Below, in pieces: positions 39,977 to 50,228 of a stretch of 50,228 nt of DNA. The notes below the pieces were generated by a model. The model had not been told where the DNA came from, did not search any database, and worked only from the letters and a program-made list of their open reading frames with translations. Positions within the stretch are counted from its first letter, which is position 1. Each line of letters starts with the position of its first letter. The DNA lies in assembly GCA_937944385.1 (NCBI GenBank), contig CALDYQ010000037.1, forward strand, positions 1 to 50,228, in the 5' to 3' direction. Source of the DNA: an uncultured Burkholderiales bacterium (lineage in GTDB: Bacteria > Pseudomonadota > Gammaproteobacteria > Burkholderiales > Casimicrobiaceae). The position numbers and the translations under genes were made by a program.

Positions 39977-42109
39977 TCAGGCGGCGGCGACCTCGACCCG
40001 GCAGTCATAGAAAGTCGCGCCACCGCCCAGATCGGTTAGAGCCTGTGCGGTGAGATCGTTGACGTGACCCATCGTTCCCGGCGCATCCCGCCAGTGGCCC
40101 CAAAGCAGCGTGGCGACCCCCGGACGGGTGTCGGTGGTGACCTCGAGCGTGAGCCGTATCTCGCCCCGACCATTCCACACCCGTACTGCAGCGCCATCGC
40201 CGAGCCCGCGCGCCCGGGCGTCGTCGGGGTGGAGCTTGAGGCGCGGCGGCCCGTGGGGACGGGCGAGTTCCGCAATGTTGGCGAACGTCGAGTTCATGAA
40301 GTTGCGCTCGGGAGGCGAAATGAGTGCAAGCGGATAGCGCGCCGCAAGCGGCGAGGCGGCCGCCTCATGCGGTGGCACGTAGCTGGGCAGCGGATCGAGC
40401 CCGCGCTCGGCCAGCGCGGCCGAATAGAACTCGCAGCGGCCCGAGGGGGTGCCGAACCCTCCTTCGGCAAACGGCGCGATGAAGCCATCCACACGCGGGT
40501 AAGCCAGCCGGACATGCCCGCGCGACATCAGCGCTTCAAAGCTCGTGTGCGCAAGCGCGGGGTGGCTGAAATCGAGTGCCTGCCGCATGAGCGCCTCGTC
40601 GGTCTCGGCAAGGGCGGGATGGTCGAGTCCCAGCGCGCGAGCGAGGCGGCGGAAGAGCTCGGTGTTGGCGATACATTCGCCCGGCGGCTCGACGGCGCGG
40701 TGATTGACGAGCACGTCGTAGTGGCCATAGCTCCGGTGGATGTCCACGTGTTCAGGCTGCATCGTGGCCGGAAGCAGATAGTCGGCGTAGCGCGCGGTGT
40801 CGGTCACGAAGTGCTCATGCACAACAGTGAACAGGTCCTCGCGCGCGAGCCCCGCGAGCACGCGATTGCCGTCGGGTGCGACTGCGGCGGGGTTGGCGTT
40901 GTAGACCACGAGCGCCCTGACGGGCGTATCGCTGCCGCGGCCGGTCAAGGCCGAAGCAGGAACGCGCTCTGGCGACAGCGCATCCCCGAGCGCGCTCATG
41001 TTGATGATGCGCGGCGGCCGCCCCGCGGCATCGCGCGGCATGAGATCGGGCCGTTCGAGCGCGACCGTGTCGACCGGGTAGGCGCCCGAGGTGGAGAGCA
41101 GCAGGCCGCCCGCCCCGCTCCGCCAAGCCCCAGTGAGCGCGGGCAGGCAGGCGATCGTGCGCACCGCCATGCCGCCACCGCCGTGGCGCTGCACGCCGTA
41201 GTTGAGCCGGATCGCAGCACGGCGCGTGCGGCCGTAGCGGGTCGCGAGCGACTCGATCGCCTCGGTCGGCAAGCCGCAGATCTCGGCGGCACGCGCGGGC
41301 GGCCACCCGGCCACGCGCTCGGCCAGTGCCTCGAAGCCCACCGTGTGGCGTGCGATGTAGTCGTGGTCGAGCAGATCGTCCCGGATGAGCACGTGCATCA
41401 TCGCAAGCGCGAGTGCGGCATCGGTGCCAGGCCGGATCGGCAGCCATTCGTGGCACTTCTCGGCCGAGAGCGAGCGGTAGGGATCAATCGCGATCAAGGT
41501 CGCACCGCGCTTTTTGGCCTCCTGGCAGCGGCTCCAGAGATGGAGGTTCGAGGCGACGGGATTCGTCCCCCAGAGGATGATGAGATCGCTCGCAGCGAAG
41601 GCCTCGATGTCCATTCCGAGGCGTGAGCCGAGCGTCACCTGGAGCCCCGCAGCCCCCGCGGAAGAACAGATCGTGCGATCGAGTTGGCTCGCGCCCAGCG
41701 CATGGAAGAAGCGGCGATCCATCGAACCGTATTGGAGGATACCCATGTTGCCCGCGTAGCTGTAGGGCAGGATGGCCTGGGCACCGTGGTCACGGCAGAT
41801 CGCGTGTAGCCGCGCGGCGATGTCTGCGAGCGCCTCGTCCCAGCTCACGCGCTCCCACGCGGGTATCCGCGCCCCCTTGGGGCCGCGGCGTCGCAGGGGG
41901 TTGAGCACGCGCTCGGGGTGATGCACACGAAGCGGATAGCGGGCGACCTTGGTGCAGAGCACGCCCGCGGTGACCGAGTGATCGGCCGCGCCGCGGACCT
42001 CGACGAGCCGTCCCGCCTCGATGTGGTTTTCGAGCGCGCAGGTGTCCGGGCAGTCGTGCGGACAGGCCCCGCGAACCACCTGCCGTTCTGCGCTTGCCTT
42101 CGGCATCAT
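39977..42109 (-). CDS. Cytoplasmic molybdopterin oxidoreductase
   Basis: A 710-residue enzyme of the DMSO-reductase family. Cys16, Cys20, Cys24 and Cys52 (CPHDCPDTC...GVLCTKVARYP) bind a 4Fe-4S cluster; the molybdopterin domains follow (YGSMDRRFFHALG, ILWGTNPVASNLH, IDPYRSLSAEKC), and the C-terminal dinucleotide-binding domain from about 590 (LALISPPERNFMNSTFAN). TICSSAGAAG lies where the Mo ligand is expected, so Cys or Ser could be the ligand. There is no Tat signal, so the enzyme stays in the cytoplasm. No partner electron-transfer subunit is seen nearby. The substrate is unknown; adjacency to msrB suggests a sulfoxide, which is inference. Confidence 0.9.
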   Translation of the reverse strand: MMPKASAERQVVRGACPHDCPDTCALENHIEAGRLVEVRGAADHSVTAGVLCTKVARYPLRVHHPERVLNPLRRRGPKGARIPAWERVSWDEALADIAARLHAICRDHGAQAILPYSYAGNMGILQYGSMDRRFFHALGASQLDRTICSSAGAAGLQVTLGSRLGMDIEAFAASDLIILWGTNPVASNLHLWSRCQEAKKRGATLIAIDPYRSLSAEKCHEWLPIRPGTDAALALAMMHVLIRDDLLDHDYIARHTVGFEALAERVAGWPPARAAEICGLPTEAIESLATRYGRTRRAAIRLNYGVQRHGGGGMAVRTIACLPALTGAWRSGAGGLLLSTSGAYPVDTVALERPDLMPRDAAGRPPRIINMSALGDALSPERVPASALTGRGSDTPVRALVVYNANPAAVAPDGNRVLAGLAREDLFTVVHEHFVTDTARYADYLLPATMQPEHVDIHRSYGHYDVLVNHRAVEPPGECIANTELFRRLARALGLDHPALAETDEALMRQALDFSHPALAHTSFEALMSRGHVRLAYPRVDGFIAPFAEGGFGTPSGRCEFYSAALAERGLDPLPSYVPPHEAAASPLAARYPLALISPPERNFMNSTFANIAELARPHGPPRLKLHPDDARARGLGDGAAVRVWNGRGEIRLTLEVTTDTRPGVATLLWGHWRDAPGTMGHVNDLTAQALTDLGGGATFYDCRVEVAAA

Positions 42110-42186
42110 GAGGTGAAAGGCGTCGGCTGCGAGAGGCGCCTCGGGCGCGGGCTCGGGCCCACGGCGTCATCCGATCGACGCACACG

Positions 42187-42214
42187 TTGACGACACCGAG
42201 AAAACCGATAATAT
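42187..42214 (+). promoter_or_regulatory. Possible promoter of the candidate small RNA
   Basis: -35-like TTGACG (42187-42192) and -10-like TAATAT (42209-42214) with a 16-base spacer; GATAAT (42207-42212) is an overlapping alternative. A perfect 10-bp palindrome ATGACGTCAT (42213-42222) straddles the expected transcription start, a natural operator position. Confidence 0.5.
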
Positions 42215-42222
42215 GACGTCAT
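42213..42222. promoter_or_regulatory. Palindrome ATGACGTCAT, possible operator
   Basis: A perfect 10-bp palindrome, extended imperfectly to about 18 bp (TATGATGACGTCATATTA on the - strand). It lies between the start of the molybdoenzyme gene and the candidate small RNA start, so one bound dimer could affect both. I do not recognise the binding protein. Confidence 0.4.
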
Positions 42223-42350
42223 CATACCCACCGTTCATCGCCGACAGCACGGTGAGCGCTGGGGATGGTTCCTTCGAAGTCACCCCTCAACACTTCCGGT
42301 CTGTTCAGATTTCGAAGGAGTCAAGCCCCGCGACTCGGGGCTTCTTTTTT
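42221..42350 (+). ncRNA. Candidate small RNA with intrinsic terminator
   Basis: From a start near 42221 to the terminator this would be about 130 nt. It could fold with CCTTCGAA (42271-42278) pairing to TTCGAAGG (42311-42318), followed by the terminator hairpin. GAGTC (42318-42322) can pair with GACTC (42332-42336) instead, which would break the terminator, so two mutually exclusive folds exist. No gene lies on the + strand to need this terminator: both neighbours run leftward. A 104-codon frame starts at 42213 but overlaps the -10, lacks a ribosome site and runs through the terminator. I therefore prefer a non-coding RNA. Confidence 0.5.
42323..42350 (+). terminator. Rho-independent terminator of the candidate small RNA
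   Basis: AAGCCCC (42323-42329), loop GCGACTC, GGGGCTT (42337-42343), then C and six T: a 7-bp GC-rich stem with a U tract on the + strand. The reverse reading has no T tract, so it is not a terminator for chpA. Confidence 0.85.
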
Positions 42351-42396
42351 CGCCGCGGCCCAGTCTGGGACCGTGGGACCGCAAGGGCATCGAGGG

Positions 42397-45300
42397 TCAG
42401 TGTACGCCGCCGGTGTACTGCGCAAGCAACCCGAGCAGCTGATCGTCCTGATAGGGCTTGCCGAGGTATTCCTCGACGCCCAGCTCCTTCGCATGCATGC
42501 GGTGCTTGTCAGCCGTCCGCGAGGTGATCATGATGATCGGAATGCCCCGCTGACGGTCGTCGGATCGGATCGTGCGTGCGAACTCGAAGCCATCCATGCG
42601 CGGCATTTCGATGTCGAGAAGGATGACGTTGGGCGTGTGATCCGCGAGTACTTGAAGCGCGTCGAGCCCGTCCTTCGCCGTGAGCACGCGATAGCCTTCG
42701 CGCTCGAGCAATCGGGTCGTGATCTTGCGCACCGTCAGCGAATCGTCGACCACGAGCACGAGCGGCGCGCGCGGCTGCACGGTGATGTCCGGCCGGATCG
42801 GAATCACTTCGGCAGCGACCGGAGCCGCAGCGGGCGTGGCGGCAACAGGCGCCACGACACCCGAGCCTGCAGGGGGGGCCTCCGCCCGCAGGGCCGCTTC
42901 GGCGGGGCTCTGGGCGTGCCCCGCAACCTGGGCAGGACGCACCGCACGTGCCGGGTCGCGCGCCTGCCCGGGCAGGACGGCCGACAGCATCAGCTGCAGC
43001 GGGTTCGACAGGATGACGATCGAGCCATCACCCAGCACGGTGAGACCGGCCAGTCCACGCACCCGCGCGAGTTGCGGGCCATAAGGCTTGGCGACGACTT
43101 CCTGGTTGCCGAGGACCGCTTCGAGCTCGAATGCCGCCACGAGATCGCCGGAGCGGAGAATGGCCACCGACCGCGTACGATGTTCGGCGACATCGATCGG
43201 TGTCTTGTCGTAGAGCGGAGTCAGAACGAAATACGGAATTTGCTTGCCCGAATGCAGCAGCGTGCCGCTCAGACGCGCAGCCTCGCATTCGGCGGAGCGC
43301 ACCTGGCGCACGGTTTCGATGAGGGACGCTGGAATACCAACGGCCGTATCGCCGGTACGCACGAGCAGCACCTGGGTGACTGCGAGCGTGAGCGGCACGC
43401 GCAGCACGAAGGTGGTCCCGCGGCCGGCCTGCGTGCGCACCTCCACACGACCGCCGAGCGCGGTGACCTCGCTGCGGACCACATCCATGCCGACGCCACG
43501 GCCGGCGATGGCGCTGACGGTCTCGGCCGTCGAGAAACCCGTCTGAAAGATCAGCTCGACGAGCTTGTCCTCGCTGACCTGCGCATCCGGTGCCAGCATG
43601 CCCAGAGCGCGGGCGCGTGCTTCGATCTTTTCGAGCGGCAGCCCGGCGCCATCGTCCGTGAGTTCGATGACGACTTCGTTGCCCTGCTGAGTGACGGCGA
43701 GCCCTATTTCGCCGGTAGCGGACTTGCCGACGCGCTCGCGCTCGACCGCCGGCTCGATGCCATGGGCGAGCGCGTTACGAACGAGATGTTCGAGCACCGG
43801 GGCGAGACGTTCGAGAACGCTGCGGTCGATCTCGGTGCGCCCCCCGCGGATATCGAGGTTGGCACGCTTGCCCAGCTCCTTGGCGGACTGGCGCAGGACG
43901 CGATAGAGGCGATCCGACAGGGTGGCGAACGGAACCGTACGCATCGACTGCAAACGCAGCTGGACCGAGCGCGAGAGCCGCATCTGTGCGGCGAGCGCGG
44001 CTTCGGCGTCCGCCAGGTTCTTGAGCAGATTCTGCTGCACCGTGGCCACGTCGTTCACCCCCTCGGCCAGGCCGCGCGTGAGCTCTTGGAAGCGTGTGTA
44101 GCGGTCGAATTCCAGCGGGTCGAAGGCGCTCTCGGTATCGAGGCGAGACTGGATTTGGGACTCGCCCTGGATCTCGATCTCGCGCAGCTGACTGCGCAGG
44201 CGAGTGACTGCGGAGGTGAGATCCAGAAGCCCGGTCTTGAGATCCCGCAGCTCACTTTCGATGCGAGCGCGGGCGATCGCGATCTCACCGGCCTCGTCGG
44301 CCAGCGTCTCGAGCGCATCGCTCCGTACGCGCAGGAAGGCGGTCTCGGCCCGAGCGGTGGCTGCCCCCAACGCTACACGAGCGGGTGTATCGGCGGCCGC
44401 CACCACAGCGGCGGGCACGGCGGGTACGACTGGCGGGAAGGAAAGGTCAGAAGGTGCAGCCGTCGGCGCGGTCACTGCGAGCGGCGCGTCCGCCACCAGA
44501 GGCACAGGAGCCGCCTCCACCCTTGGCACCCGAGCGACGTCCTCCGCCGCTTCGACGACGGCATCCAGACGGAAGCGCGGCAGCACGACGTTGTGCTCGC
44601 CCCGGCTATGCCGATCGAGCAGGAAGGCCACATCGTCGAGCGCTTCATCCACCGCATCGAAAAATGCCGGATCGGGCAGGGCCGGCGCTTCGATGATGCG
44701 TGTTTCGAGCAAGTGGGTGATCTCGCCGAGACGCATCGCTCCAGCCATGCGGGCGCTGCCCTTGAGCGTGTGCAGCGTACGCTTGATCGCCGCACGCGCC
44801 GAGGCGTCGCCCGGCGCCGCGCGCATCATCCGCGCCTGCTCGGTCGCCGCCGGGAAGAGCTCCTGCGCCTCCTCGAGAAATAGTGGCATGACCTGCTCAT
44901 CGACCTCGTCACGTACGTCGGCCAACGGGTCGGCGCTGTCGGTTTCTGCGTGCGTGAGCACCGTGGGCGCGAGCGTGGCTCGACCAGCCACAGCTGCCGC
45001 CGCAATTCCGAGCGGCGTAACCGCGGCAGATGCCCCTGGCGCGGGCGATGCCACCGTCGGGGATGACGTCGTAGCTATAGGCTGCGCCGTGGGTGTTGAC
45101 CCCGGCTCGCGCGCGACGGGCGCGGGCGCCTGCTCCACAGCCCGTGGAGCTGCAGCCATTTCGGACAGCGACGCGACGGGCTCAAGCAGAACCGACGCGG
45201 CCGGTTGCGGCTCGTGGATATCGGACTGCTCGAACGCGCTTGCCTCGGGTGCTGGGGGGAGCGTGGGCTCCGCTTGCGGTGATGGGATCGAGGCGACGGC

Positions 45301-48300
45301 GCTCGCATCGACCGGCGCTGCACTGCGCGCCGGTGCCAGCGGCTCGACACCGACCCCCAGAGACGTGAGTTCGACCGGCGAGGCGGCCGCCGTAGCCTCA
45401 GTCGATTGCCCAGTCTCGGTGACGTCAAGCAGACCAGGCGTTCTCGGGGGGGCTGTCGCTTCATCGCGAATGGCCGCCATGGCAGCGGCAACGGCGTCAC
45501 GCGTGCGCGCGCCGAGCCGTACGCCGAGCCGTGCATTGAGCCCACGCATGGCGACCAGCGCCTGGCCGAATGCCCGGCGCTCCTCCTCGTGCATCGCGGT
45601 CTTGGTCTGGATGCGCAGGGACGCGGTACGCAGGGCGGCGATCGCCGAAGCGATCACCGCATAGGCTTCTCCGTCGCGCGCGGCACCGCTCAATGTGACC
45701 AATGCACTCTCGATCTCTGCGGCGAGGTCACCGATGTGGGTGAACCCCGCCGTCCGATGAATCCCGCACAGCGTGTGTGCAGCACGCACCATGCTTTCAC
45801 TGGGCACGCCCGCGGGGTCGAATTGCAGCAGCGCCAGTTCATGCTCGAGCGTCTGCAGGTGCGCGCGTGACTCGTCCACCAAAATGGAGAACAGCGTACG
45901 CGGCACCGTGACACCCTCGACGACCACGTTCTCGTCCTCGAGCGTCCAGGCACTCGCCGGCAGTTCGATCACCTCGGGCAACGAGATCGACTCATCGGCT
46001 GATTCCTTTGCGGTCGCGAACGCATCGACCTGCTCTCCAGCCACAGACGAGGCGCGCGGAGGTTCTGGCTCGACCGGCGGCGGTGATACTGCATCCGGAC
46101 TCGACGGCGGAACGAAATCTAGCGTGGGCAGGGGCGCGGCGGCCGGCCCGCTCTGCGCAATGGGGGAAGGCGGTTCGGCGACCAAGGCGGTCGCAATCGG
46201 CGGCAACTCCGGGAGTTGCGCGTCCAGCTCCAGTGCACGCATGGCGGGGACTTCGGCGGCGACGACGCCAAGCTCGACCGTCGTCCGGGCTGGCGCGACG
46301 TCCTGGGTGGCCGAAGTCATCCAGCCGTCGGGCGGCATTTCGCGGCGCTCGCACGCCGCGACCAGTCGCGTGATGGCGCCGACATCGACATCGGCCCGCC
46401 CTGTGTCCTCCTTGAGTTGGCTCACCCACCCTTCGAACAGGGTCGTTGCGGCCTTTATGAGCGCGACCTCATGGGGCAGCGGCGCACGATCGCTCTCGAG
46501 CACGCCGTTGAGCACACGCTCGATCTGCCATGCCGCCTCGCCGAAGTCCGTCAAGCCGACCATGCGGCCACTGCCCTTCAGCGTGTGGAACGCCCGTCGC
46601 ACGGTCACCAGCGCATCGCGGTCCCCAGGCGCTGAAACGAGATTCGACACGCCTTCCTTGAGGGTGGACACGACCTCCACCGCCTCTTCGCAGAAGATCT
46701 CGAGCAGCAGCGAGTCTCGCTCCTCATCCCGGGCCTTGGCCAGACGCTGCGACTCGGGAGAGGCCTCGGGAACGGGAACGCTCGTGTCCGACGCAGCGAG
46801 CAGCGCACTGACTGCAGCAGCGTCCGGCTTGCCCTGGTCGATTGCGGCGAGGGCGCTGTTCGCGGCGCCAAGCAGACGGGTGTCCGCGAGCAGTTCGGCG
46901 TCGTACTTGATCGCGAGAACCGCCTCGCGCGCGCTGCCCGCACCCGCGGGCTCGGCGGCCAGTTCGAGGGATTCGCGCAACTGACGTCGATGTCCAGCGA
47001 TGGACGCTTCGACACTCTGGTCCTCGTGCGACGCGCTTTCGACCGGCTCGCCTCGCGCCCGACGTTCGAGCGCATCGAGCATGGCTTCAGCCTCGTTCTC
47101 TCGCTGCCCCTTCGCGTCGATGTAGAAGCTGATGCCTGCCAGCGTGTCCGCGTACTCGTTGATAAGCTTGTCGTCGAGCGGCTGTTCGCTCTGGATGCCC
47201 TGGAGCAGGCGTGCCGACGTCTCCGACAGGATGTCGTTCGCTCGCGTCCAGCCAAGGATCTGCAGTGCGCCAGAAACCTGCGCGAGCAATCCGGGAACGG
47301 GTGCAAGCTCATCGACTGCGCTCCGATCGCGGAACGCGGTGTCGAGCGCCTGTTCGACGGCCCGCATGTTGGTGCGGATCTCGCGCACCACCTGCGCAAC
47401 CGTCGCTCGTTCCTGCGCCTTGCGCGTGAGGCTGTCGGCGTCGGTATCGTTGCGCAGCTCGGACGGGATGGCAACGCCCGTGCGCGCGTAGGTGAGACGC
47501 TGGATGGTCAAGTCGACTTGCGCCGAGAAGTTGCGGGGCAGCGATGCGATCTGGCTCGCTGCCGTCTCGATGAGAATCAGCGTCGAGGCGATCTCGATCG
47601 AGAGATCGTCGCTCGGTGTCGCGGCACCCAAACCGTGAACTGTCTCGGCCAGCGCCTCACCGAGACGTTTGAAGTCTGCGTGTCCGAGCAGCTTGCTCTG
47701 CGCGGCAATCTCGTCCACCGCAGAAACAAACTCGTCCCGGTCGCGCTCGCGCGCCACGCCGAGGGAGGTGCCCCAGCGCTCCTTGGCCCGAGCGACCGCC
47801 TGCCCGAGACGTTCGAGCGCAGGCTGGATCGCGATGTAGTCGATCTCGACCGGCACCCGCTTCGGTATCAGCACGCCCAGCTCGTACAGAGCCTTGACCT
47901 CGTCGACGAGCGGGTCTCCGTCATCGCTGCGCGCGAGGTGGTAGAGCACTTCGCGACGAAGTCGGTCCGCCACGCGCGTCGAGCCTTCGGCAAACCGGCG
48001 GATCTGCAGATCGACGCGGGCGAACAGTTGCTTGAGGGCAACCGACGGTTCGAGCAGACGGGTCTCGACCGCACGGATCAGCGCGCGCGTGCTCCACCAG
48101 AACGACCGCTGTGCGGGCAGGGGAAACGCTTCCTCGATGGACTCGAGCGCACCACTCATCAGCCCGAGGCCGCCCGCCCCCCCGCGCAACCACAGGAGCA
48201 GTCCCTGCTGGAACTCCCGCCGCTTGCGCATGAGAAGGGCCGGGAGCTGCCCGGGCGGGATCTCGACCGTGGTCGGTGCCTTGGCAGGCTTTCGCGACAG

Positions 48301-48729
48301 ATCGGGAAAAAACAAATCTGCCGGTCCGAGCCGGGCGTTGCGCAGCTTGCCGAGTGCAAGGTACTCGGGCAGGAAGCGGATCGGCACAGCCGGCGCACCT
48401 GCGGCGATCTCCTGCAGATGGGCGAGCAGCCGTCGCACGCCGCGTTCGATCTGCTCCAAGGCCTGCACGGAAGGCGGCTGCGATGGGGCAGTGAAATGCG
48501 TTTCGAACTCGCGAACGAGGACGGAAAGTCCCTCGACACCGACCAGCTCGAAGGCGCCAGCCACGGTGTGCAGTTCGCGCGCGATGGACTTCTTGACCTC
48601 GGGTTCGATCCGCTCCCGGCTCGCGGCGATGCCGCTGAGCACTCGCGCGAGCGAGGCCTCGATTTCGGGCTTGACCCAGGTGATCGGCCCGGTGTCGAGC
48701 TCGAGAGGGATGTCGATCGACACGCTCAT
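42397..48729 (-). CDS. chpA: Hybrid chemotaxis histidine kinase ChpA/PilL
   Basis: A 2110-residue CheA-like kinase controlling type IV pili. Hpt or Hpt-like sites are visible at about residues 54 (ELHTVAGAFEL), 714 (AFHTLKGSGRMVG), 985 (AAHTLCGIHRTAG) and 1320 (TLHTLKGSARMAG). The dimerisation and HATPase domains follow, with N-box HLVRNALAHGIEP near 1647 and GRGVGMDVVRSEV, then a CheW-like domain (about 1790-1925) and a C-terminal receiver (about 1985-2105) with VLVVDDSLTVRK and LLDIEMPRMDGFEF. Long Ala/Pro/Glu linkers join the Hpt modules. The ATG at 48729 follows AGAGG and lies eight bases after the pilJ stop. The order pilJ-chpA matches the Pil-Chp operon. Confidence 0.95.
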   Translation of the reverse strand: MSVSIDIPLELDTGPITWVKPEIEASLARVLSGIAASRERIEPEVKKSIARELHTVAGAFELVGVEGLSVLVREFETHFTAPSQPPSVQALEQIERGVRRLLAHLQEIAAGAPAVPIRFLPEYLALGKLRNARLGPADLFFPDLSRKPAKAPTTVEIPPGQLPALLMRKRREFQQGLLLWLRGGAGGLGLMSGALESIEEAFPLPAQRSFWWSTRALIRAVETRLLEPSVALKQLFARVDLQIRRFAEGSTRVADRLRREVLYHLARSDDGDPLVDEVKALYELGVLIPKRVPVEIDYIAIQPALERLGQAVARAKERWGTSLGVARERDRDEFVSAVDEIAAQSKLLGHADFKRLGEALAETVHGLGAATPSDDLSIEIASTLILIETAASQIASLPRNFSAQVDLTIQRLTYARTGVAIPSELRNDTDADSLTRKAQERATVAQVVREIRTNMRAVEQALDTAFRDRSAVDELAPVPGLLAQVSGALQILGWTRANDILSETSARLLQGIQSEQPLDDKLINEYADTLAGISFYIDAKGQRENEAEAMLDALERRARGEPVESASHEDQSVEASIAGHRRQLRESLELAAEPAGAGSAREAVLAIKYDAELLADTRLLGAANSALAAIDQGKPDAAAVSALLAASDTSVPVPEASPESQRLAKARDEERDSLLLEIFCEEAVEVVSTLKEGVSNLVSAPGDRDALVTVRRAFHTLKGSGRMVGLTDFGEAAWQIERVLNGVLESDRAPLPHEVALIKAATTLFEGWVSQLKEDTGRADVDVGAITRLVAACERREMPPDGWMTSATQDVAPARTTVELGVVAAEVPAMRALELDAQLPELPPIATALVAEPPSPIAQSGPAAAPLPTLDFVPPSSPDAVSPPPVEPEPPRASSVAGEQVDAFATAKESADESISLPEVIELPASAWTLEDENVVVEGVTVPRTLFSILVDESRAHLQTLEHELALLQFDPAGVPSESMVRAAHTLCGIHRTAGFTHIGDLAAEIESALVTLSGAARDGEAYAVIASAIAALRTASLRIQTKTAMHEEERRAFGQALVAMRGLNARLGVRLGARTRDAVAAAMAAIRDEATAPPRTPGLLDVTETGQSTEATAAASPVELTSLGVGVEPLAPARSAAPVDASAVASIPSPQAEPTLPPAPEASAFEQSDIHEPQPAASVLLEPVASLSEMAAAPRAVEQAPAPVAREPGSTPTAQPIATTSSPTVASPAPGASAAVTPLGIAAAAVAGRATLAPTVLTHAETDSADPLADVRDEVDEQVMPLFLEEAQELFPAATEQARMMRAAPGDASARAAIKRTLHTLKGSARMAGAMRLGEITHLLETRIIEAPALPDPAFFDAVDEALDDVAFLLDRHSRGEHNVVLPRFRLDAVVEAAEDVARVPRVEAAPVPLVADAPLAVTAPTAAPSDLSFPPVVPAVPAAVVAAADTPARVALGAATARAETAFLRVRSDALETLADEAGEIAIARARIESELRDLKTGLLDLTSAVTRLRSQLREIEIQGESQIQSRLDTESAFDPLEFDRYTRFQELTRGLAEGVNDVATVQQNLLKNLADAEAALAAQMRLSRSVQLRLQSMRTVPFATLSDRLYRVLRQSAKELGKRANLDIRGGRTEIDRSVLERLAPVLEHLVRNALAHGIEPAVERERVGKSATGEIGLAVTQQGNEVVIELTDDGAGLPLEKIEARARALGMLAPDAQVSEDKLVELIFQTGFSTAETVSAIAGRGVGMDVVRSEVTALGGRVEVRTQAGRGTTFVLRVPLTLAVTQVLLVRTGDTAVGIPASLIETVRQVRSAECEAARLSGTLLHSGKQIPYFVLTPLYDKTPIDVAEHRTRSVAILRSGDLVAAFELEAVLGNQEVVAKPYGPQLARVRGLAGLTVLGDGSIVILSNPLQLMLSAVLPGQARDPARAVRPAQVAGHAQSPAEAALRAEAPPAGSGVVAPVAATPAAAPVAAEVIPIRPDITVQPRAPLVLVVDDSLTVRKITTRLLEREGYRVLTAKDGLDALQVLADHTPNVILLDIEMPRMDGFEFARTIRSDDRQRGIPIIMITSRTADKHRMHAKELGVEEYLGKPYQDDQLLGLLAQYTGGVH

Positions 48730-48736
48730 CAACCTC

Positions 48737-50228
48737 TCAGACCTTGAAGCCAGCAACCGACATGCGGAGCGACTGGGCCAGTCGACCCAACTCCTCAATC
48801 GAGCTGTTGGTCTGCTGGGTACCGCGCGAGGTCTCTTCAGTCACGGCAAGGATGTCCTGCATGCAACGCGTCACTTCGGACACCGAGGCCGCCTGTGACT
48901 GCGCCTGGGCCGAGATGCCGGCCACGATCTCAGCGAGCTCCTTCGACACGCGACCGATCTCGGCAAGCGCCTGGCCGGCGGCGTCAGACAGACGCGTCCC
49001 TTCGACCACCCCCTGAGTGGTGCGCTCCATGGCGCTCACCGCATCCTGGGTGTCGGCCTGAATGGTCCGAACCAGCGCTTCGATCTGTTTGGTGGCCTCG
49101 GCAGAGCGTTCAGCGAGTCGCTGGACCTCTTCCGCAACCACCGTGAAGCCGCGGCCCGCTTCCCCGGCCGAGGCCGCCTGGATGGCGGCGTTCAGAGCAA
49201 GGACGTTCGTCTGTTCGGTGATGTCCGAGATCAGTTCCACGATCTCACCGATCTCCTGCGAGCTTTCGCCGAGGCGCTTGATGCGCTTCGCGCTGTCCTG
49301 AATCTGGGCCCGGATCTCGTTCATGCCGGCGATCTGGTTCTGCACCGCAACGGAGCCTTGCTCGGCCACGGCGAGCGACTGTTGCGCAACGCTGGCCCCC
49401 TGGGAGGCGGAGTTCGACACCTCGGCAATCGATTGCGCCATTTGCAGCACGAGCGAGCTCGCCCGCTGGATCTCACCGGACTGCCGCTGCGACGCCTGGA
49501 AGAGACGCTGGGACACAGCCTGTGCAGACTGGGTCGCGCTTGCGACGTCGGCGGTCGTGTTGTTGATGCCTGTCACCACCTTGCGCAGTTCATCGACCGT
49601 GAAGTTGATCGAGTCTGCGATCGCGCCGGTCACGTCTTCGGTCACGCTCGCGCGCACCGTGAGATCACCGTCGGCGAGCGTGCCCATCTCGTTGAGCAGA
49701 CGCAAAATGGCCTCCTGGTTGCGCTGGTTCTCGAGCTCGTTGGCTCTCGCGCGCTCCCGGGCTTCGTTCACGAACAGGTAGCCGAGCAGGACGCCGAAGA
49801 TCACCGTGAGTACACCGAAGATCACCGCGAGGACGACCGCGATGTTGGAGGTGTTGCCGCTACCCTCATAGGCGGCGGTGAGGTTTCGGGTGGCCGTGAG
49901 AAGGCCCTCGGACTCCTGCGCGATGACGCGGGAGGCCTGCTTGCCCGCGAGAAGACGCGGCATCGCACGTAGCACGTCGGCCAAGCGCCGCTCGGTTTCC
50001 TGGAAGCGCATCGTCAGCTCGGCGAGCGTCCGCCGCGTTTCGGCATCACGCACCGGCGCCAAGCGCAACGACTCGCTGCCCTGCGTCAAGCCCGCGAGGA
50101 TGTCGCGGAACGTCGCCGTGTCCTTGCCGAGCAGGAAGGCCACGTCGGAGTCGACCTCGTTGCCGAGGAGAGCGTTGGCGTTCTTGGCGATCCGCTGGGT
50201 CAGCATCACGAGGTTTCCTGCGAGCGCA
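48737..50228 (-). CDS. pilJ: Twitching-motility methyl-accepting protein PilJ (5' end cut)
   Basis: The frame continues off the window's right end (upstream codons read ALAGNLV before [10 protein letters not shown]), so the N-terminus is missing; about 497 codons are present. [14 protein letters not shown] is the PilJ-type ligand-region motif. A membrane segment ([26 protein letters not shown]) is followed by a HAMP-like region ([20 protein letters not shown]) and the long coiled-coil signalling domain with the hairpin [48 protein letters not shown]. The last residues, VAGFKV, match PilJ. It feeds ChpA; pilG, pilH and pilI should lie to the right. Confidence 0.95.

Follow-up and report, generated by a model that had tools for sequence, protein, structure and literature searches.

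The region studied lies in a window of 50,228 nucleotides from an uncultured Burkholderiales bacterium, between two genes on the − strand that fall outside the unit described here: a molybdopterin oxidoreductase gene (39977–42109), which is divergent from it, and a chpA-like gene with Hpt, HATPase_c, CheW and receiver domains (42397–48798), which is convergent with it. A sigma-70-type promoter sequence, TTGACG-N16-TAATAT, was found on the + strand at 42187–42214 by a pattern scan and by comparison with relatives, bearing out a promoter-like pair to which an earlier note on this DNA had pointed. It matches the consensus at 9 of 12 positions and is one of two promoter-like sites in 1.5 kb, where shuffled sequences gave a mean of 0.1.

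From a predicted start at about 42222, the RNA encoded between promoter and terminator is predicted to form three hairpins in succession, all on the + strand. The 5' hairpin, SL1 (42221–42269), comes from the predicted fold; every one of the 16 copies of the gene is predicted to have a hairpin at this end, with a sequence that varies among relatives. SL2 (42271–42318), defined by alignment, covariation and a covariance model, has an outer stem of 11 pairs (42271–42281 with 42308–42318) and holds in its loop a C/U-rich core, CACCCCTCAACACTTCCGGTCTGTTCAG (42281–42308), which is conserved across copies. It is followed by an intrinsic terminator (42323–42350), identified by a terminator scan and by folding, with an 8-pair stem at 42323–42343 and then a T-run. 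This + strand terminator, also named in the earlier note, was the only terminator-like site found on that strand in 1.5 kb; taken alone it is not beyond chance expectation, shuffled sequences giving a mean of 0.6. The 132-nt span as a whole folds at −52.7 kcal/mol (z −4.0), and none of 200 shuffles folded as well.

Two structural details of the earlier note, a palindrome at the start point (TGACGTCA) and a GAGTC/GACTC pairing in competition with the terminator stem, turned out to be present in the window copy only (1/16 in both cases). Forcing the GAGTC/GACTC pairing gave −42.0 against −52.7 kcal/mol, a cost of 10.7 kcal/mol, and the pairing was predicted with a probability of 0.0, so the hairpins are predicted to follow one another and not, as had been proposed, to be mutually exclusive.

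The span of about 130 bases had been described as free of a good ORF, and no conserved ORF was found among the copies. The frame from 42213, whose reality as a protein gene would have told against an RNA, has its start within the −10 box. Ten relatives have an ATG where that box ends, and in these the frame stops after 4–14 codons (L052 is left out of this count, its ATG being in the spacer). As in a trans-encoded sRNA, the locus has its own promoter and intrinsic terminator, at the sequence level, and a conserved RNA structure without a conserved ORF.

Distribution and conservation of the RNA gene

The RNA gene was present in 16 of the 17 genomes, the window genome included, of one Burkholderiales genus known from metagenome-assembled genomes only. 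When 60 genomes, its own counted, were searched by BLAST with the window sequence, two of the others matched clearly (E 3.7e-7 and 1.4e-4); all further matches were short, spread over most genomes and of E 7.4e-4 or weaker. With the first of these two (E 3.7e-7) as query, matches touching the core were obtained in 16/17 genomes of the genus, and six other genomes of the taxonomic family matched the terminator part only (E 0.001–0.005). G016 was the sole genome of the 17 in which neither BLAST nor the covariance model found a match. In the 47 other genomes of the taxonomic family, BLAST gave nothing better than a match of about E 0.001, confined to the terminator part, and the covariance model nothing better than E 0.003.

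The covariance model of 16 sequences recovered the same 16 genomes (E ≤ 1.6e-14). In the larger searches, which include the training sequences and, like all those over more than 40 genomes, used stricter filters by which weak relatives may be missed, its other matches among 64 genomes of the taxonomic family were of E 6.7e-6 or weaker, and nothing outside the genus exceeded 31.7 bits in 399 genomes of the order, matches of 28–32 bits being found in taxonomic families f20 and f21. A model built from the 15 relatives with the window left out (R2) had its only match in 50 kb at 42265–42349 on the + strand (58 bits, E 2.8e-11). The exact core pattern, sought in genomes of 84,980 species, was found on 14 contigs, the window's own contig not among them, all from metagenome-assembled Betaproteobacteria, Burkholderiales, Proteobacteria or Pseudomonadota; the named records of the genus are all metagenome-assembled genomes (14/14).

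Secondary model matches in G014:C261, G007:C19, G015:C91 and G010:C10 were considered as further copies and rejected as unrelated-looking hairpins with terminators. A hairpin with a similar stem, a C-rich loop and a terminator was also observed in a sister genus (G033:C225; L180 793–884, − strand), with 26 bits in the RNA model; it may be distantly related or may match by chance.

Each of the 16 copies carries TTGAC[A/G] with a −10-like hexamer 16–17 nt further on, as found by a script that demanded TTGAC and took the best −10 with A2 and T6, and their fold z-scores range from −3.0 to −6.0 (100 shuffles each). The promoters of the 15 relatives read TTGACA-N17 followed by TAATAT (13), TACAGT (1) or TACTAT (1), and the window copy lies farther from the consensus than these in its −35 box and spacer.

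The earlier note had looked to relatives for covarying stems, and the outer helix of SL2 provides them. When the 16 cores were aligned by sequence only (A2, 15 distinct rows), two-sided changes were found in 9 of its 11 pairs and 85.4% of cells were paired, the two middle pairs being unpaired in 8/14 and 9/14 rows; in the window copy all 11 pairs form, one of them as G-U. The whole structure contains 24 cells with two-sided changes against a shuffled mean of 8.2. In four of five covariation measures the observed value was reached by none of 500 shuffles, and in the fifth, further pair types, it was 18 against 15.8, with 55 of 500 shuffles as high. In register 88.6% of cells were paired, against 30–44% in slid versions, and the terminator helix lies in two registers in A2, which makes its 83% of paired cells an underestimate. 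A full-length consensus fold from another alignment (A1), in which the 5' end paired with the terminator, was attributed to misaligned terminators and rejected; single-sequence folds and alignment A2 were used in its place.

The SL2 core, ACCCC(C)UCGAUACACCUCCGGUCUUAUCAGG, is invariant in the 15 relatives save for one C that some of them lack, and ACCCCTC, with one extra C in some copies, is kept in 16/16. In the relatives, ACCCC(C)UC is predicted to form an internal bulge and GAUA...UAUC an inner hairpin with the loop UCC. The window copy keeps ACCCCUC, misses the two bases after it, has lost the inner hairpin, and reads CACTTCC where the 15 relatives read CACCTCC. The core is predicted to be mostly unpaired, with unpaired probabilities for the bulge bases of 0.58–0.96 in the window and 0.77–0.99 in L040.

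Stems and terminator, on whose conservation the earlier proposal had been made to depend, are among the features borne out by comparison of the copies. The short + strand RNA put forward in that note is strongly supported by sequence comparison, through its relatives, the covariation and the leave-one-out model, and the most probable reading of the region 42187–42350 is that of a genuine small regulatory RNA gene.

Genomic neighbourhood

In 13 of the 16 copies the RNA gene is preceded on the same strand by one encoding a Spy-like periplasmic protein, an adjacency established by clustering in 11 copies and by coordinates in two (G011 and G009). In a Pfam LTXXQ scan of two Spy-like proteins, one passed the cut-off of 24.3 bits with 30.5 bits and the other, with 20.3, was below it. 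Clustering also placed a histidine kinase beside the RNA gene in at least 12/16 copies and an OmpR-like regulator in at least 8/16, counts that are lower bounds, the ORF calls being mechanical. The usual presence of a Spy-like gene and a two-component system beside the RNA suggests a possible role in cell-envelope stress.

The Spy-like gene of G003 and G008 is found ~16.4–16.5 kb upstream of the RNA gene, on the same strand and beside two-component genes, with other genes between. Within these ~16 kb there is a frame of ~2,450 codons (L201 5618–13006, − strand; L202 7621–14928, + strand); in 13 other genomes of the genus, unlike these two, the Spy-like gene and the sRNA are adjacent. A search with the Spy-like protein gave no match in the window genome or in G016, and both genomes keep a kinase of 48–49% identity.

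Only the window copy, of the 16, adjoins chpA. By mechanical ORF starts, chpA and the molybdopterin gene lie 287 bp apart in the window (42109–42397) and 128 bp apart in G016 (L162 1348–1477), where no RNA gene was found between them. The extra 159 bp in the window come close to the 164 bp of promoter and RNA, a difference that would fit a compact unit having been inserted here in the lineage of the window; the sequences of the two gaps cannot be aligned. The retention of the RNA at differing positions and among differing neighbours points to action in trans.

Relation to known RNA families

Searching the whole window against Rfam 15 gave no match at gathering thresholds. The search of 42180–42360 that the earlier note had suggested, run at a loose threshold, gave nine matches, all far below the cut-offs, and the 12 loose matches of the relatives likewise included none at its own cut-off. 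Hrs13 (RF02631), named in a paper on Erwinia amylovora (PMC4070566), had sub-threshold matches in 3/15 relatives, the best of 30.6 bits (E 0.00084, 45-kb search) against a cut-off of 52 bits, and was absent from the window's matches up to E 10.

Membership of RF02278 was rejected, the window scoring 11.3 bits (E 6.7) against a gathering cut-off of 50 bits. The RNAs of that family (bdhR1, ncS27 and other double-hairpin RNAs) are likewise short betaproteobacterial RNAs, and share with the RNA described here a C/U-rich unpaired stretch and loop complementary to ribosome-binding sites, with a terminator directly after it; the window has such a stretch by its terminator, with CACTTCC for CACCTCC. 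Their core differs in sequence, however, the consensus beginning UGUCUCCUC. At E ≤ 0.001, RF02278 was detected in 53 of 119 genomes, among them none of the 17 of the genus but 15 of the 47 others of the taxonomic family, if all 47 are among the 119, as we infer. None of four RF02278 loci in the taxonomic family had Spy-like or two-component genes in flanks of ~4–6 kb; a shared neighbourhood is expected of orthologues, though it does not define them.

The Bordetella pertussis RNA S17 has been described as a homologue of the RF02278 RNAs that depends on Hfq and represses BP2158 through base-pairing between its Site 1 and the 5' UTR, for which compensatory changes gave support (PMC11722255). For the double-hairpin RNAs of Burkholderia cenocepacia, coverage of ribosome-binding sites by the C/U-rich parts has been predicted (PMC5688073). 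The best explanation is that our RNA would work like these betaproteobacterial 'toxic' sRNAs (RF02278, S17) but is not a member of RF02278.

Possible mode of action

We consider it probable that the locus is a free-standing gene for a trans-acting sRNA of ~130 nt, probably assisted by Hfq, that blocks ribosome binding and represents a family so far found in one uncultured Burkholderiales genus. The RNA would act in trans: the unpaired ACCCC(C)UC, together with CACCUCC in 15/16 copies, would base-pair, probably with the help of Hfq, with the G-rich Shine-Dalgarno regions of a number of mRNAs and thereby block ribosomes. The proposal draws on an anatomy like that of the RF02278-group RNAs and on the Hfq gene found in 16/17 genomes of the genus, the window's included. 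The core is partly complementary to ribosome-binding sites, and two target patterns were searched for. The pattern TTGAGGGG-N3-12-RTG occurred twice in the window's genome and five times in the reversed control. The pattern TCGAGGGG-N3-12-ATG had 4–35 matches per genome of the genus against 0–7 in the reversed control, but G016, which is without the RNA, had 18 against 2, so this pattern looks like ordinary ribosome-binding sites. Neither test gave support to the proposed pairing.

This result leaves room for a different function of the conserved loop, namely that it binds a protein or a ligand, as a regulator sponge or a structured motif, with no mRNA pairing; we think this unlikely. As in binding motifs, a loop of ~27 nt is invariant in 15/16 copies, and the stem around it changes by compensation. 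CsrA/RsmA sponges, however, repeat a GGA motif, and the core has no GGA. It is instead C/U-rich, with the anti-Shine-Dalgarno sequence CACCTCC in 15/16 copies, and an invariant 27-nt stretch is also reported for S17, which pairs with mRNA (PMC11722255).

Action in cis, either as antisense control of chpA or as a leader or attenuator of a downstream gene, appears very improbable. The RNA is convergent with chpA in the window, its predicted end being 46 bp from the chpA stop codon, and the earlier note had accordingly regarded it as antisense to the chpA 3' UTR and as possibly touching the motility system. That idea did not survive comparison: the other 15 copies are away from chpA, and in G016 chpA directly adjoins the molybdopterin gene with the RNA absent. 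Nor is there a plausible + strand gene downstream in the window, where the next gene is chpA on the − strand. The link of the RNA to the neighbouring motility gene looks accidental. CpxP and Spy are kin, and the position of the RNA 3' of a Spy/CpxP-like periplasmic protein gene, on the same strand and near a two-component system, in 13/16 copies recalls CpxQ in its gene context. CpxQ is reported to be the 3' end of cpxP (PMC4817254), and derivation of our RNA from the 3' UTR of the Spy-like gene, in place of an independent gene, would be a similar case. We find this improbable, and the sequences do not fit a CpxQ-type sRNA without its own promoter: unlike CpxQ, the RNA has a promoter sequence in 16/16 copies; a terminator-like hairpin and T-run were seen by eye upstream of that promoter in L040, L041, L046 and L047; and the window copy is away from any Spy-like gene, its upstream gene being on the other strand and the search of its genome for a Spy-like protein having found nothing. 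That the locus encodes a small protein is hardly credible. The core is readable as PSIHLRSYQ, and in the window the frame passing through it runs for 104 codons without a stop, but this LRS frame is without an in-transcript start codon in 6/16 copies, synonymous sites of the core are also kept, a one-base length difference 5' of the core shifts the frame, and the changes in the stem alter residues.

The trans-acting sRNA that we favour forms a new, apparently genus-restricted family of a known kind, that of small regulatory RNAs with an anti-ribosome-binding-site core. Literature searches by gene and family names, and not by sequence, found no description of it, and none was found that linked LTXXQ with a small RNA and a two-component system. 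It contributes a family of RNAs strongly supported by covariation and unmatched by any Rfam 15 model at cut-off, and its usual site by a Spy-like gene and a two-component system is a testable hint of function. A more specific reading, which we offer as doubtful, is that of an undescribed envelope-stress sRNA family, encoded beside the Spy-like gene and its two-component system, that originated in the genus and took over the role played by RF02278-type RNAs in sister genera. In the window genome, which is smaller and from which the Spy-like gene is gone, a unit of ~160 bp would have been transferred to the chpA locus. The anatomy, a covarying stem with a near-invariant C/U-rich loop (S17, too, is reported to have an invariant stretch of 27 nt), is like that of RF02278 and S17, the sequence is different and RF02278 was not found in the genus, which raises the question of whether bacterial lineages swap RF02278-like sRNAs for analogues.

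As a separate observation, a hairpin with the loop CATTCCTCCTCCTTGG and a terminator, like the RF02278 core, was seen at L177 683–756 (− strand; G007:C19:148482-148555). It lies 3' of an ORF ending GLDIVSHGETAYN, which we take to resemble an ammonium transporter, an arrangement seen in one locus only among those examined.
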